Positions 30,903 to 36,730 of a stretch of DNA of 38,245 bases are shown here, one piece after another (position 1 is the stretch's first letter; each line of letters starts with the position of its first letter). The stretch spans positions 1-38,245 of the forward strand of contig NZ_KB903818.1 in the NCBI RefSeq assembly GCF_000379825.1, in the 5' to 3' direction. Made by a program: the position numbers and the translations under genes. The notes beneath the pieces are model-generated. The model was not told the DNA's origin. It ran no database searches and saw nothing but the letters and a program-made list of their open reading frames with translations. The stretch is from Longispora albida DSM 44784 (lineage in GTDB: Bacteria > Actinomycetota > Actinomycetes > Mycobacteriales > Micromonosporaceae).

Positions 30903-33143
30903 ATGGCGAAGAAGGCTCCCGCGAACGATCCCGGTGACCGTGACCTGCGGGTTGGCCCGCCGAAGGACGTCGCGGCCGGTGTGCCGGGCGTCGTGGCCGG
31001 CCTGAAGGCCGCGTACGCGGAGATGGGGGTCCGGCGGACGGCGCTGACCCTGGCCCGCGTGAACCAGAAGCACGGATTCGACTGCCCTGGGTGCGCGTGG
31101 CCGGAGAGTGGCGGCCACCGGTCCCCGGCGGAGTTCTGTGAGAACGGCGCGAAGGCCGTCGCCGAGGAGGCGACCCTGCGCCGGGTGACGCGGGAGTTCT
31201 TCGAGCAGCACTCCCTCGACGACCTGGCCGGCAAGTCGGACTACTGGCTGGGCCAGCAGGGCCGGATCACCCGGCCGATGGTCAAGCGGCCCGGCGCCTC
31301 GCACTACACGCCGATCGCGTGGGACGAGGCGTTCAGCCTGCTGGCCTCGGTACTGAACAAGCTTGAAAGCCCTGACCAGGCCGCTTTCTACACGTCGGGC
31401 CGGACCAGCAACGAAGCCGCTTTCCTGTACCAGCTCTTCGCCCGGGCCTTTGGCACCAACAATCTGCCGGACTGCTCGAACATGTGCCACGAGTCCTCGG
31501 GCAGCGCGCTGAACGCGACGATCGGGATCGGCAAGGGCAGTGTGTCCCTTGAGGACATCCACCGGGCCGGGCTGATCGTGGTCGTCGGGCAGAACCCCGG
31601 CACCAACCATCCCCGGATGCTGTCCGCGCTGGAGATCGCGAAGCGGAACGGCGCGAAGATCATTTCGGTGAACCCGCTACCGGAGGCCGGGCTGATCCGC
31701 TTCAAGAACCCGCAGCACACGGGCGGCGTGGTGGGCGCGGGCACCGCCCTGTCCGACGTGTACCTCCAGATCAAGGTGGGCGGGGACCTGGCGTTGTTCC
31801 AGGCGATCGGGTCGCTGCTGCTGGAGCACGCCGACCGGGAGTTCATCGAGCGGCACACGACCGGTTTCGAGTCCTACGCGGCGAACGTCCGCGAGGTGGA
31901 CTGGGCGAAGGTCGAGCACGCGACCGGGCTGGGCCGCGCGCAGATCGAGGACGTTGCCCGGATGTTCGCGGAGAGCGAGGCCACGATCGCCTGCTGGGCG
32001 ATGGGCCTCACGCAGCACAAGGACGCGGTCGCGACGATCCAGGAGGTCGTCAACGTCCAGCTCCTGCGCGGCATGATCGGCAAGCCGGGTGCCGGCCTCT
32101 GCCCGGTGCGCGGCCACTCCAACGTCCAGGGCGACCGCACGATGGGCGTCTGGGAGCGGGTGCCGGCCTGGGGTCCGGCTCTGGGCAAGGAGTTCGATTT
32201 CCCGGTACCCGCGGAGACCGGCCACGACACTGTGGACACCATCCGGGCGATGCGCGACGGCCGCGTGAAGGTGTTCGTGGGGATGGGCGGCAACTTCGCC
32301 TCCGCCACGCCGGACACCGAGCTCACCGAGGCGGCTCTGCGGTCGTGCACCCTGACGGCCCACATCTCGACGAAGCTCAACCGCTCGCACGTGGTGACCG
32401 GTGAGACCGCGCTGATCCTGCCCTGCCTGGGCCGTACCGAGGCCGACCCGGCAGGCTTCGTGACCGTCGAGGACTCGATGAGCTGCGTGCACGCCTCGCG
32501 GGGACGCCTCAAGCCCGCCTCCGACCTGCTGCTGTCCGAGGTCGCGATCGTGTCCCGGCTCGGGGCGGCCACCCTCGGCGACCACATTCCGTGGCGGGAG
32601 TTCGAGCACGACTACCGGGAGGTCAGGGCGCGGATCGCCCGCGTGATCCCCGGCTTCGAGAACTACGAGGAACGGCTCGACGGGGCCGGCTTCACCCTCC
32701 CGCACCCGCCGCGCGACTCGCGGTCGTTCAACACGCCGGACGGGCGGGCGCAGTTCACGACGTCACCGATGACGGTCATCGACGTACCGGAGGGGCGGCT
32801 GCTGCTCCAGACGCTGCGGAGCCACGACCAGTACAACACCACGATCTACGGGCTCGACGACAGGTACCGGGGCATCAAGGGCGGCAGGCGGGTCGTGTTC
32901 GCCCACACGGAGGACCTGGCCTCGTTCGGGGTCGCGGACGGGTCCCTTGTGGACATCGTGTCGGAGTGGCCGGACGGGGAACGGCGAGCCGAGTCGTTCC
33001 GGGCCGTCGCGTACCCGACGCCGCGCGGATGCGCAGCCGCGTACTTCCCGGAGGCCAACGTCCTCGTGCCACTGGACTCGGTGGCGACAGGGTCGAACAC
33101 TCCTACGTCGAAGGCGATCGTGATCCGGCTCGAGGCGCGCTGA
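30903..33143 (+). CDS. FdhF/YdeP-type molybdopterin oxidoreductase
   Basis: A 746-residue Mo-bisMGD oxidoreductase of the YdeP branch of the formate-dehydrogenase/DMSO-reductase superfamily. The N-terminus has a cysteine cluster (FDCPGCAWPE followed by FCENG near residue 78) that may hold an iron-sulfur site with fewer ligands than FdhF. MPT-binding segments include TSGRTSNEAAFLYQLFARAFGTNNLPDCSNMCHESSG, VVVGQNPGTNHPRML, and the C-terminal MPT domain from about 600 (LLQTLRSHDQYNTTIYG...). The cysteine in NMCHE is the candidate Mo ligand. The physiological substrate is unknown; E. coli YdeP aids acid resistance. ATG 30903 follows TACGCT by 7 nt, indicating a leaderless mRNA. FdhD and MobA, which mature this cofactor, are encoded 2.8 kb downstream. 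Confidence 0.9.
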   Translation: MAKKAPANDPGDRDLRVGPPKDVAAGVPGVVAGLKAAYAEMGVRRTALTLARVNQKHGFDCPGCAWPESGGHRSPAEFCENGAKAVAEEATLRRVTREFFEQHSLDDLAGKSDYWLGQQGRITRPMVKRPGASHYTPIAWDEAFSLLASVLNKLESPDQAAFYTSGRTSNEAAFLYQLFARAFGTNNLPDCSNMCHESSGSALNATIGIGKGSVSLEDIHRAGLIVVVGQNPGTNHPRMLSALEIAKRNGAKIISVNPLPEAGLIRFKNPQHTGGVVGAGTALSDVYLQIKVGGDLALFQAIGSLLLEHADREFIERHTTGFESYAANVREVDWAKVEHATGLGRAQIEDVARMFAESEATIACWAMGLTQHKDAVATIQEVVNVQLLRGMIGKPGAGLCPVRGHSNVQGDRTMGVWERVPAWGPALGKEFDFPVPAETGHDTVDTIRAMRDGRVKVFVGMGGNFASATPDTELTEAALRSCTLTAHISTKLNRSHVVTGETALILPCLGRTEADPAGFVTVEDSMSCVHASRGRLKPASDLLLSEVAIVSRLGAATLGDHIPWREFEHDYREVRARIARVIPGFENYEERLDGAGFTLPHPPRDSRSFNTPDGRAQFTTSPMTVIDVPEGRLLLQTLRSHDQYNTTIYGLDDRYRGIKGGRRVVFAHTEDLASFGVADGSLVDIVSEWPDGERRAESFRAVAYPTPRGCAAAYFPEANVLVPLDSVATGSNTPTSKAIVIRLEAR

Positions 33144-33553
33144 CCCCTTCGGGTTCCAGGCCGTGTTCGGGTGCCGGCCTGTGCTCGCGTTCTGGGTTTC
33201 GGTCTTCAGAGCCAGGCTTGTCCGCGTGCCGGGTCTGGTTCGGCGGATGTGGTGCGGGCCCCCGAGCGGGCAGGTGTGACGCCGATGCTTGCCTTGGCGG
33301 GCCGGGGTGCCCGAGGCTGGCGGGAGGGGAACGCGGGGGCTGCTCAGGGTTACCCGGGGTCACGAGGGGTCACCGGGGCCGGTGGCGCCGGGCTGTTCCT
33401 GTCAGCGTGGCCGGGAGTGTCCGGCCTGGTCGGGCGTACTTTTCCCGGCCGGTGACAGTACGTGTCACCGGGTGGGTATCAGGCTTCTTCCGACTAGCCG
33501 TAGGGAAAAACTTAGGCTAGGCTCGCCTCGCCAGGCGGCCGAAGGAGGTGCAG
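33144..33553. other. 410-bp gap with an inverted repeat and iron box
   Basis: No gene is visible here. The region is G-rich with short repeats (GGGGTCAC at about 33358-33379, twice). A perfect 9-bp inverted repeat, CCGGTGACA-N5-TGTCACCGG, occupies 33449-33471, and an iron box lies at 33512-33530. The ribosome-binding site of the DUF3159 gene (AAGGAGG, 33542-33548) ends the region. Confidence 0.6.
33512..33530 (+). promoter_or_regulatory. DtxR/IdeR-type iron box
   Basis: TTAGGCTAGGCTCGCCTCG matches the 19-bp consensus TTAGGTTAGGCTAACCTAA at 14 positions, with the left half almost perfect. TAGGCT within it can serve as a -10. It lies 24 bp before the DUF3159 start, so the gene and those after it should be repressed when iron is plentiful. 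Confidence 0.72.
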
Positions 33554-34186
33554 GTGTCTGAGTCTCTGGCCTCTTTGCTGGGTGGCCGGTCTGGTGCGGT
33601 GGACGCGACCATCCCGCCGCTGGCCTTCGCGGCCGGCTGGCTGCTGACCGGCAACTCCATCGGCTGGGGTGCCCTCACGGCACTGGCCGCAGCCGGCGGC
33701 GTCGCGCTGTGGCGGCTGCGGCAGGGCGCCAAGCCCCGGGCGGTGCTGATCGGGGCCTTCGCCGTCTGCGTGTCGGCGCTGATCGCCCTGTACACCGGCC
33801 GGGCCTCCGACTTCTTCCTCATCCAGATCGCGTCGAACGCGGCCAGCGCGCTCGGCTGGACGATCAGCATCGTGATCCGCTGGCCGCTGCTCGGCGTGAT
33901 CGCGGGCGCGGCCCTCGGCCAGAAGACCAGGTGGAGGCGGGATCCCGCGCTGCTGCGGGCCTACTCGCGGGCCAGCTGGGTGTGGGTCGGGCAGTACGTG
34001 CTGCGGCTGCTGGTGTTCGTGCCACTGTGGGCGGCCGACCAGCTGGTGGCGCTCACGGCCGCCCGGGTGATCCTCACGTGGCCGCTGATCGCGGTGTGCC
34101 TGGCCGTGAGCTGGTGGGTACTGCGCAAGGCACTTCCATCCGGGCATCCGGGCATCCGCCATCCGGAACTCCTGGAGGCACCGTGA
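33554..34186 (+). CDS. DUF3159 membrane protein
   Basis: A 210-residue integral membrane protein of the DUF3159 family, recognised by TGRASDFFLIQIASNAASALGWTISIVIRWPLLGVIAGAALG followed by WRRDPALLRAYSRASWVWVGQYVLRLLVFVPLW. It has about six membrane helices. The family is widespread in actinomycetes but has no known function. The GTG 33554 start lies 5 nt after GAAGGAGG; GTG 33548 overlaps that site and is less likely. The iron box just upstream and the DUF2470 gene downstream suggest a role in heme or iron handling, perhaps transport, which is inference. The stop is 52 bp before the next gene. Confidence 0.8.
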   Translation: MSESLASLLGGRSGAVDATIPPLAFAAGWLLTGNSIGWGALTALAAAGGVALWRLRQGAKPRAVLIGAFAVCVSALIALYTGRASDFFLIQIASNAASALGWTISIVIRWPLLGVIAGAALGQKTRWRRDPALLRAYSRASWVWVGQYVLRLLVFVPLWAADQLVALTAARVILTWPLIAVCLAVSWWVLRKALPSGHPGIRHPELLEAP

Positions 34187-34238
34187 GCCCTGCCTGTTCG
34201 CCACTGATCCCGTGTCCGGCCGGTGCTGAGGAGTCGAC

Positions 34239-34550
34239 GTGACCAACCCGTTCTCGCCCGAGATCATCGCCGCCGTGCAGCGGCACATGAACGCCGATCA
34301 CGCCGAGGACTCGGTGCTGATCTGCCGGGCGCTGGGCGGCGTGCCCGAGGCGGCAAGGGCCGAGATGACCGGCCTCGACGGCGAGGGCATCGACTTCGAG
34401 GTGACCACCGGCGACGCGACCGTCGCGGTCCGGATCCCGTGGGCGCACACCCTCACGGAACGGCCCGAGATCCGCACCGAGGTGACCCGGATGTACCACG
34501 AGGCGTGCCGCCAGCTCGGCGTGCCGGCCAGGGGCGAAGGGGAGCACTGA
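34239..34550 (+). CDS. DUF2470 protein (heme-utilisation type)
   Basis: A 103-residue single-domain DUF2470 protein: FSPEIIAAVQRHMNADHAEDSVLICRALGG with the typical H-M-N-x-D-H motif, followed by EMTGLDGEGIDFEV and IPWAHTLTERPEIRTEVTRMYHEACRQLG. The same domain forms the C-terminus of HugZ/HutZ-type heme-degrading oxygenases, where its histidine can ligate heme. Here it stands alone. The GTG 34239 start has a GAGGAG site 5 nt upstream. It lies between an iron-box-controlled DUF3159 gene and a heme oxygenase, so binding or delivering heme is a reasonable guess. Confidence 0.85.
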   Translation: MTNPFSPEIIAAVQRHMNADHAEDSVLICRALGGVPEAARAEMTGLDGEGIDFEVTTGDATVAVRIPWAHTLTERPEIRTEVTRMYHEACRQLGVPARGEGEH

Positions 34551-34623
34551 GCTTTCCGGCGGCCATGCGAGCCGGCTGGTCGGACAGAGTCCGGAGCCTT
34601 ACCGACAAGTTGTCGGGAAAACC

Positions 34624-34675
34624 TTGACAGGCTGGGGCATACCCCCACAGACTCGGATTACCCCTTCGTAAGGAG
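34624..34675 (+). promoter_or_regulatory. Promoter and ribosome-binding site of the heme oxygenase gene
   Basis: TTGACA (34624-34629) and CAGACT (34648-34653), 18 bp apart, form a good promoter. AAGGAG (34670-34675) is 7 nt before ATG 34683. TTACCCCTTCGTAA (34658-34671) between them has TTAC-N6-GTAA symmetry. Confidence 0.6.
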
Positions 34676-34682
34676 CAATCCG

Positions 34683-35327
34683 ATGTTCTCCGCTGATCTG
34701 CGCGCCGCGACCTGGTCCGACCACCAGAAGGCCGAAAGCACGGCCTACCTCGAAGCGCTGATGCGCGGCCAGCTCAGCCTCGGGCAGTACGCGGAGATGG
34801 TGGCCCAGCACTACTTCGCGTACGTGGTCCTGGAAGAAGCCGCTGCCGTGATGCGCCGCGACCCGGTCGCCAGCGTCTTCGCGGTACCGGAGCTGGACCG
34901 GCTTCCCGCGCTCGAAGCCGACCTCGCGTACCTGCTCGGCGACGGCTGGGCCGGCCAGATCACGGCGAGCGCGTCGACGGAGCGGTACTGTGCCCGGCTG
35001 CGGGAGGTCTGCTTCGGCTGGCCCGGGGGGTTCGTCGCGCACCACTACACGCGGTACCTCGGGGACCTGTCGGGCGGCCAGTTCATCCGCAAGTCCGTGG
35101 CCAGGACCTACGGGCTCACCACCGGCGGCGTGGCCTTCTACGACTTCCCGGAGATCGGCGACCTCAAGGCATTCAAGATCCAGTACCGGGACGCGCTCGA
35201 CGCCGCGCCGTGGACGGCCGAGGAGCAGCAGCGGATCATCACCGAGACCGCGCTGGCCTACGAGCTGAACACGGACGTGCTGGCCGAGCTCGGTACCGGG
35301 CTGCCGGGCAGCGACCTGGCGGCCTAG
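34683..35327 (+). CDS. hmuO: Heme oxygenase (biliverdin-producing, HmuO type)
   Basis: The 214-residue alpha-helical enzyme opens heme to biliverdin, CO and Fe2+ to recover iron. The proximal heme ligand is in the N-terminal ATWSDHQKAES, and the distal-helix glycine motif is YLGDLSGGQFIRKSVARTYGL (about residue 125). FHHYTRYL-type segments (VAHHYTRYLGD) and KIQYRDALDAAPWT complete the family pattern. Corynebacterial HmuO is DtxR-controlled. Here the gene has its own TTGACA promoter and a good ribosome-binding site. It lies 133 bp after the DUF2470 gene, so it may also be read from the iron-box promoter. Its stop overlaps that of convergent mobA by 4 bp. Confidence 0.93.
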   Translation: MFSADLRAATWSDHQKAESTAYLEALMRGQLSLGQYAEMVAQHYFAYVVLEEAAAVMRRDPVASVFAVPELDRLPALEADLAYLLGDGWAGQITASASTERYCARLREVCFGWPGGFVAHHYTRYLGDLSGGQFIRKSVARTYGLTTGGVAFYDFPEIGDLKAFKIQYRDALDAAPWTAEEQQRIITETALAYELNTDVLAELGTGLPGSDLAA

Positions 35328-35914: not shown

Positions 35915-36730
35915 ATGGGCAGGGTGACAGATCGGCGGCCAGTGGTCCGCATCGACAACGGGAAAACCAGCAGGCGGCCAGACACACTCAGCGTCGAGGA
36001 ACCCCTGGAAATCCGCGTCGACGGCTCCCCGCTCGCCGTCACCATGCGCACACCAGGCGACGACGTCGACCTCGCACACGGATTCCTGCTGACGGAAGGA
36101 ATCATCACGAGCGGCGCCGACGTGGCGGGCGCGAAACACTGCATGGACACCAATCTCAATGTCCTCGAGGTAAGCCTCCGGGCCGGTGTCCCAGCACCCG
36201 TCACCGACCCGACCCGGCATTTCTACATGTCCAGCTCCTGCGGCACCTGCGGAAAGGCCAGCATCGACGCGGTGAGAATCGCTTCCGTGTACCCGGTCGA
36301 GAAAGACCAGCTGACCGTCACCCCGGAAACACTGAGCAGCCTCCCCGACCGGCTCCGCGAGCGGCAGAAAGCATTCGACCGCACCGGAGGCCTCCACGCG
36401 GCCGGCCTCTTCACCGCCAGCGGTGAACTCCTCTGCGTCCGTGAGGACGTGGGCAGGCACAACGCCGTCGACAAGGTACTGGGCTGGGCGCTCCGCTCCG
36501 GCCACGTGCCCCTGACCAGCCACATCCTCATGGTCAGCGGCCGGGCCAGCTTCGAGCTGACCCAGAAGGCCGCGCTCGCCGGCATCCCGCTCCTGGCTGC
36601 TGTCTCGGCGCCCAGCACCCTCGCCGTCGACCTCGCGAACGAACTCGGGCTGACCCTCGTGGGATTCCTCCGCGGGACGTCGATGAACGTTTACTCCCGG
36701 GCTGATCGGATCGCGGGAGGAGAGGAGTAG
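35915..36730 (+). CDS. fdhD: Formate dehydrogenase accessory sulfurtransferase
   Basis: The 271-residue FdhD moves sulfur from a cysteine desulfurase to the Mo-bisMGD cofactor, which formate dehydrogenases of the FdhF type need. The catalytic loop is in YMSSSCGTCGKAS (Cys-x-x-Cys), and other motifs are VEEPLEIRVDG, VDLAHGFLLTEGII, TGGLHAAGLF, CVREDVGRHNAVDKV and MVSGRASFELTQKAALAGIPLLAAVSAPS. ATG 35915 follows TATCGT (35903-35908) by 6 nt and has no ribosome-binding site, so it is leaderless. It is divergent from mobA with abutting start codons. Its likely client is YdeP at 30.9 kb. Confidence 0.94.
   Translation: MGRVTDRRPVVRIDNGKTSRRPDTLSVEEPLEIRVDGSPLAVTMRTPGDDVDLAHGFLLTEGIITSGADVAGAKHCMDTNLNVLEVSLRAGVPAPVTDPTRHFYMSSSCGTCGKASIDAVRIASVYPVEKDQLTVTPETLSSLPDRLRERQKAFDRTGGLHAAGLFTASGELLCVREDVGRHNAVDKVLGWALRSGHVPLTSHILMVSGRASFELTQKAALAGIPLLAAVSAPSTLAVDLANELGLTLVGFLRGTSMNVYSRADRIAGGEE

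Follow-up and report, generated by a model that had tools for sequence, protein, structure and literature searches.

The domain DUF2470, renamed 'Domain Related to Iron' (DRI), has been described in Actinomycetota as a lone domain encoded in a putative operon with a heme oxygenase (HO) and as part of DRI-HO fusions (PMC11014987). The Rv3839-Rv3840 operon encodes a DUF2470-containing protein that shows IdeR-dependent induction in low iron and has been linked to heme homeostasis (PMC13258150), and the predicted DmdR1 regulon of Streptomyces coelicolor includes the hmuO/htaA-hmuTUV homologues SCO2267 and SCO2270-2274 (PMC12161575). Here we analyse a locus of Longispora albida DSM 44784 (Micromonosporaceae), contained in a stretch of 38,245 nucleotides (contig NZ_KB903818.1, positions 1 to 38,245; hereafter the window). 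On the + strand of the window, a DtxR/IdeR-type iron box (33512–33530) is followed by genes for a DUF3159 membrane protein, a single-domain DRI and a canonical HO. Our best reading, to which we give a probability of about 0.55, is that these three proteins make up an iron-repressed, membrane-tethered heme-degrading unit.

The locus resembles the DRI-HO pair of Actinomycetota in having a single-domain DRI beside, or fused to, a canonical HO. It differs in gene order, since DRI precedes HO in the window and HO comes first in 27 loci of relatives, and in setting: the pair lies behind an iron-boxed DUF3159 gene, and is fused to DUF3159 in one genus; a literature search for the word DUF3159 did not return PMC11014987. 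With the hmuO/htaA-hmuTUV system of Corynebacterium diphtheriae and its Streptomyces homologues, the locus shares a DtxR-type iron box upstream of a canonical HO; in the window genome, however, HtaA has no match and a close HmuU is missing, and DUF3159 is the sole membrane component of the putative operon. The likeness to Rv3839-Rv3840 is that of an iron-regulated DUF2470 protein tied to heme, but the available part of PMC13258150 names neither HO nor DUF3159 as part of that operon.

An earlier note on this DNA had taken DUF2470 to be otherwise the tail of HugZ-type proteins, which does not hold, because a lone DRI with HO had already been described in Actinomycetota (PMC11014987). A literature search by family terms found neither the joining of DUF3159 with DRI and HO nor an iron box of the DUF3159 subfamily in print. 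What is new here is the iron box of that subfamily, the rare three-gene linkage and a fusion of all three in one reading frame; the DRI-HO pair itself is already known.

Conservation of the iron box

The box, TTAGGCTAGGCTCGCCTCG, agrees with 14 of 19 positions of a strict consensus and 15 of 19 of a degenerate one, and is the top-scoring 19-mer of the whole window. Its end lies 24 bp before the GTG start codon at 33554, so that both its place and its score bear out what the earlier note had reported. A weight matrix built from 44 boxes of relatives, with the window's genus excluded, also ranked 33512 first when run over both strands of the window, though with a low score.

By itself, the motif is only about two-fold over chance in the genome, a moderate excess. 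A whole-genome scan with a degenerate pattern gave 28 forward and 22 reverse sites with at most three mismatches, while the reversed pattern, used as control, gave 14 and 13; the window box belongs to the 14 sites that have two mismatches or fewer. The perfect site of the genome lies between genes for a lysine/ornithine monooxygenase and a formyltransferase, and another of the top sites lies immediately 5' of a gene for an FTR1 permease; boxes of this kind therefore mark iron genes in the window genome.

What decides in favour of more than a chance match is conservation in relatives, the strongest evidence here. In the sister genome of the same genus, TTAGGCTAGCCTGGCCTTT aligns at the position corresponding to the window box. 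At each of the 29 best-hit DUF3159 loci, excluding the window, we scanned 520 bp that cover the start of the match and the sequence ahead of it; every locus had a site of at least 13/19, as compared with 11 of 1550 mononucleotide shuffles; at two canonical DUF3159 paralogue loci the best sites reached only 10 and 11 of 19. From 457 confirmed DUF3159 loci we took the best 80 as a set of named loci, in which close relatives of the window may be missing; a core of at least 9/11 was present within 300 bp in 45 of the 80, versus 1 of 315 control stretches of those loci. The box is unevenly spread by label: 2/29 for Micromonospora and 0/1 for Salinispora, versus 43/50 for all others. Similarly, 10 of 20 hand-picked genomes, partly overlapping the named loci, have it (0/9 in genus g4, 10/11 elsewhere), while eight DUF3159 loci from a search across the class, including two of g4, lack it, with best matches of 6–8/11. 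Given this distribution, the box looks as if it belongs to this DUF3159 subfamily and is ancestral to it within the family, which supports the iron control that had been proposed for the DUF3159 gene.

The box is missing in 27 of the 29 Micromonospora-labelled loci and in the Salinispora locus (L148), in the range L079–L150, where iron control may have been lost or a different regulator may act. Two downstream neighbour families recur in this group, each at 26 loci. We also considered whether the DUF3159 box depends on the presence of HO in the genome and rejected this, as both combinations occur among the 20 hand-picked genomes.

Features of the three proteins

Pfam confirmed the identities that the earlier note had given to the three genes. 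The DUF3159 gene (33554–34186, + strand; PF11361, E 2e-56) starts with the GTG at 33554, preceded by AAGGAGG, and ends with the stop at 34186, encoding 210 amino acids. From an AlphaFold2 prediction (predicted local distance difference test score, pLDDT, 88) and the charge per loop, with loop boundaries set by hand, we read the protein as having six transmembrane helices with both its N and C ends in the cytoplasm. Neither a comparison of the predicted fold with solved structures nor a profile search against them returned an informative relative; this is not evidence of a new fold. The protein carries a conserved charged loop. Among 51 DUF3159 sequences no His, Cys or Met column is strictly invariant; in the cytosolic tail His200 is found in 50 and His205 in 45, and Cys74 and Cys184 are found in 36 and 39, respectively. 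The 16 closest sequences share two Cys and one tail His without exception.

The tail motif HPGxRHP (34145–34165 in the window; also in P0001) is nearly invariant and stands just before the point at which DRI joins in the fusion described below, making it a candidate site for hand-over of metal or heme.

The window genome has a second DUF3159 copy (locus L003) and single matches to DUF2470 and HO. This second, canonical copy belongs to the same Pfam family but is only about 30% identical, has no iron box and has other neighbours, namely dut-, OB-fold- and TrkA-like genes, named by eye from open frames. We presume that this neighbourhood resembles the Rv2693c region.

The DRI gene (34239–34550, + strand) encodes 103 amino acids, with DUF2470 as the sole Pfam domain (E 3.9e-21). 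The protein is not of the HugZ type, in which a PNPOx-like split barrel precedes DUF2470, and scores 32 bits with TIGR04109 against a cut-off of 240. His16 and His21 are kept in 34 of 34 aligned rows, and position 79 is Arg in all 34, whereas Ssr1698/Dri1, in an ungapped alignment, has His79. As ligand roles are assigned to His16, His21 and the heme-ligand His79 of Dri1 (PMC11014987), a zinc-mirror heme site of the Dri1 type is not expected in the window DRI.

The HO gene (34683–35327, + strand; 214 amino acids, HmuO/HO-1 type; Pfam E 2.5e-54) matches PF01126 over its full length (residues 2–202, profile positions 3–204 of 204). Among solved structures its product matches 1we1 (E 1e-39) and 1iw0 (E 7e-35), the latter of which we take to be the HmuO structure. 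His14 lines up with a histidine in 1we1, the stretch GDLSGGQ is identical to that of 1we1, and His14, Asp128, Gly131 and Gly132 are present in 31 of 31 aligned rows. We take His14 to be the proximal heme ligand and GDLSGG to be part of the distal helix. By profile and signature residues, then, the predicted protein is a canonical heme oxygenase.

Linkage and fusion of the three genes

Across 250 genomes of the family, this type of DUF3159 occurs in 219 (E 1e-20 or better), DUF2470 in 190 and HO in 158. By eye, among the matches listed, DUF3159 adjoins DUF2470 in at least three genomes: the window genome, its sister and a genome of a further genus (G010). The window and sister genomes share the order YdeP, box, DUF3159, DRI, HO, FdhD. 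In G010, DUF3159, DRI and HO form a single reading frame of 513 amino acids in the order of the window, with DUF3159 at residues 10–196, DUF2470 at 227–297 and HO at 312–508, each domain covering nearly the full Pfam profile; the fused gene is preceded by a box-like site, TTAGGTTAGGCTGCCCTGG, which agrees with 15 of 19 positions. The three-gene linkage is rare: we saw it in the window and sister genomes and, as a fusion, in a single further genus. With the C-terminus of DUF3159 read as inside, the fused DRI-HO part would be cytosolic, and the fusion argues for a partnership of DUF3159 and HO at the membrane.

Elsewhere HO precedes DRI, lying within 1.5 kb and always upstream in 27 of the best 30 DRI loci. 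An iron box of at least 10/11 stands directly before HO in 9 of these 27, and at three of five boxed HO-DRI loci whose wider surroundings were read, genes for a FecCD-type permease and an ATP-binding cassette (ABC) ATPase adjoin (one by Pfam check). In an HO tree of 31 rows, the window and its sister group together with support of 98/94, the linkage has a single origin in 62% of bootstrap trees, and G010 sits on a long branch. The tree is compatible with one or with two origins.

At the level of genomes, HO goes together with this DUF3159: it is present in 150 of the 219 genomes with DUF3159 and in 8 of the 31 without (p 1e-5), although shared ancestry is not removed from this or the following statistics. 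With one genome per genus the counts are 24/37 and 1/7 (p 0.03), and when three weak DUF3159 hits are treated as absent they become 24/34 and 1/10 (p 0.001).

HtaA is found in 61 of the 250 genomes, all 61 of which have HO, and gave no match in the window, sister and fusion genomes. These three genomes also lack a close HmuU, the best permease reaching 40–43% (41% in the window genome) versus 61–100% in six hand-picked HtaA-bearing relatives, one of which is the query's own genome. The missing HtaA and HmuU are consistent with a different heme route. We rejected the absence of HtaA as a feature that sets the linked genomes apart, as it is not significant there (p 0.28).

Proposed mechanism and alternative explanations

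In the mechanism we propose, a DUF3159-DRI-HO operon would be repressed by an iron-loaded regulator of the DtxR/IdeR type and switched on in low iron, presumably as a single transcript. HO would open heme to biliverdin, carbon monoxide and Fe2+, and DRI may bind heme, hand it over or regulate HO. DUF3159 would be the membrane-integral partner, keeping DRI and HO, possibly in a complex, on the inner side of the membrane, at the place where heme would arrive or be let go by hemoproteins; HO in the window organism would be located at the membrane. The idea of a heme-iron recovery unit, put forward in the earlier note, is supported as to heme degradation by the signature residues of HO and DRI together with the triple fusion; the membrane role in heme uptake or export that the note also suggested finds no such support.

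Several results weigh against a dedicated heme-degrading unit. Neither DRI nor HO was found near DUF3159 at any of the 80 named loci (for most of them, about 6 kb on either side), so the search for linked genes that the earlier note had suggested turned up the sister and the one-genus fusion but not a general association. The fusion was found in only 1 of 354 genomes of the family (fusion query, E 1e-100) and in none of 394 genomes of the class (E 1e-70), where nine matches cover the DUF3159 part only; these searches scored the first 3–4 candidates per genome, and split or diverged fusions could escape them. Other neighbours of DUF3159 are unrelated, for example aminotransferase and AAA_26 genes of the biotin-synthesis type. 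The genus-level association of DUF3159 and HO weakens to p 0.14 when two incomplete genomes are left out (p 0.004 with the weak hits treated as absent), and HtaA is missing in 97 of the 158 HO genomes, so that its absence from three of three linked genomes carries p 0.28. Finally, the box persists before DUF3159 in at least five genomes that lack an HO match (G011, G036, G037, G040 and G054), which means that the iron control of DUF3159 is not tied to HO, and the role of DUF3159 may be wider than heme.

These observations feed the main rival, which we consider less probable, though a serious contender. DUF3159 could be a general low-iron membrane protein, concerned with another iron source or with adaptation of the membrane, behind whose promoter DRI-HO has merely moved, the fusion being a neutral read-through. 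This would fit the retention of the box where HO is missing and beside a wide variety of neighbours, as well as the HO-DRI loci that lie apart from DUF3159 and in 9 of 27 cases have a box of their own before HO. However, a neutral read-through sits poorly with a fused frame in which all three Pfam domains are kept over nearly their full profiles, and a chance relocation sits poorly with the genome-level co-occurrence of DUF3159 and HO.

It is unlikely, in our judgement, that DUF3159 is a heme permease that passes heme to DRI and HO in place of HtaA-HmuTUV. The lack of HtaA and of a close HmuU in the linked genomes, the six-helix reading with its conserved charged loop, the two conserved His of the cytosolic tail beside the fusion point, and the fusion to HO itself are all in keeping with such a role. 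On the other hand, the fold searches, though uninformative, matched no transporter fold; none of the strictly invariant residues is a His, Cys or Met, even Cys74 and Cys184 being absent from some sequences; DUF3159 is present in genomes without HO; and many HO genomes without HtaA nevertheless do not link HO to DUF3159. Equally unlikely is a reading in which the DUF3159 subfamily would be an iron-starvation membrane protein that takes heme at the membrane and feeds an attached DRI-HO, with no need of an ABC transporter. Such an import-and-crack device might come in three pieces or in one, the one-piece form being the 513-amino-acid polypeptide of one genus.

That the box is a chance or decayed match and the operon escapes iron control in the window organism seems very improbable: the matrix score of 7.5 is indeed well below the relatives' minimum of 14.0 and median of 26.0, and the genome-wide hits exceed the reversed control only about two-fold, but a near-identical core stands at the corresponding position in the sister genome and relatives. 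The window copy looks somewhat decayed.

For DUF3159, a family without known function, conserved iron control and a covalent link to HO in one lineage provide a lead. Should DUF3159 and HO truly be partners, they would represent a bacterial heme oxygenase coupled to the membrane, and perhaps a way to heme iron that does without HtaA-HmuTUV. In the fusion all three domains sit on one protein, which can be directly expressed and tested.

The region before the heme oxygenase gene

A promoter-like stretch, TTGACA-N18-CAGACT (34624–34653, + strand), was found before HO by alignment with the sister genome, the two having TTGACA-N18-(C/G)AGACT in common. In the sister an iron box (10/11) lies downstream of it; in the window the best iron-box core of the DRI-HO gap is 7/11, and the place corresponding to the sister box is degenerate. 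A sigma-70 promoter scan found none in the operon region. The conserved stretch suggests that HO may have its own promoter and could, in addition, be transcribed separately. The DRI-HO gap (34550–34683 in the window; L010:2401–2508 in the sister) folds better than shuffles in both genomes, with z about -2.3 in each and differing shapes.

Neighbouring genes and other DUF3159 loci

On its 5' side the operon is bordered by a gene for a molybdopterin oxidoreductase of the FdhF/YdeP kind (30903–33143), and on its 3' side by a MobA-like gene on the opposite strand and by fdhD (35915–36730). The sister genome, too, has the operon between the FdhF/YdeP oxidoreductase gene and fdhD, and these two flanking genes probably belong together. 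No neighbour was common to all DUF3159 loci, with gene calls that are crude (the window DUF3159 is mis-framed, and some matches have no gene). At six Actinoplanes-labelled loci (L081, L083, L087, L091, L094 and L147), a gene that by eye is molybdopterin-oxidoreductase-like lies a few kb 3' of the boxed DUF3159, with a weak YdeP match at L091. A second, different iron-boxed arrangement is seen in Phytomonospora and Actinorhabdospora (L071:5899–9794, checked by Pfam, and L074), where the box and DUF3159 are followed by genes of the bioA-bioF-bioD type.
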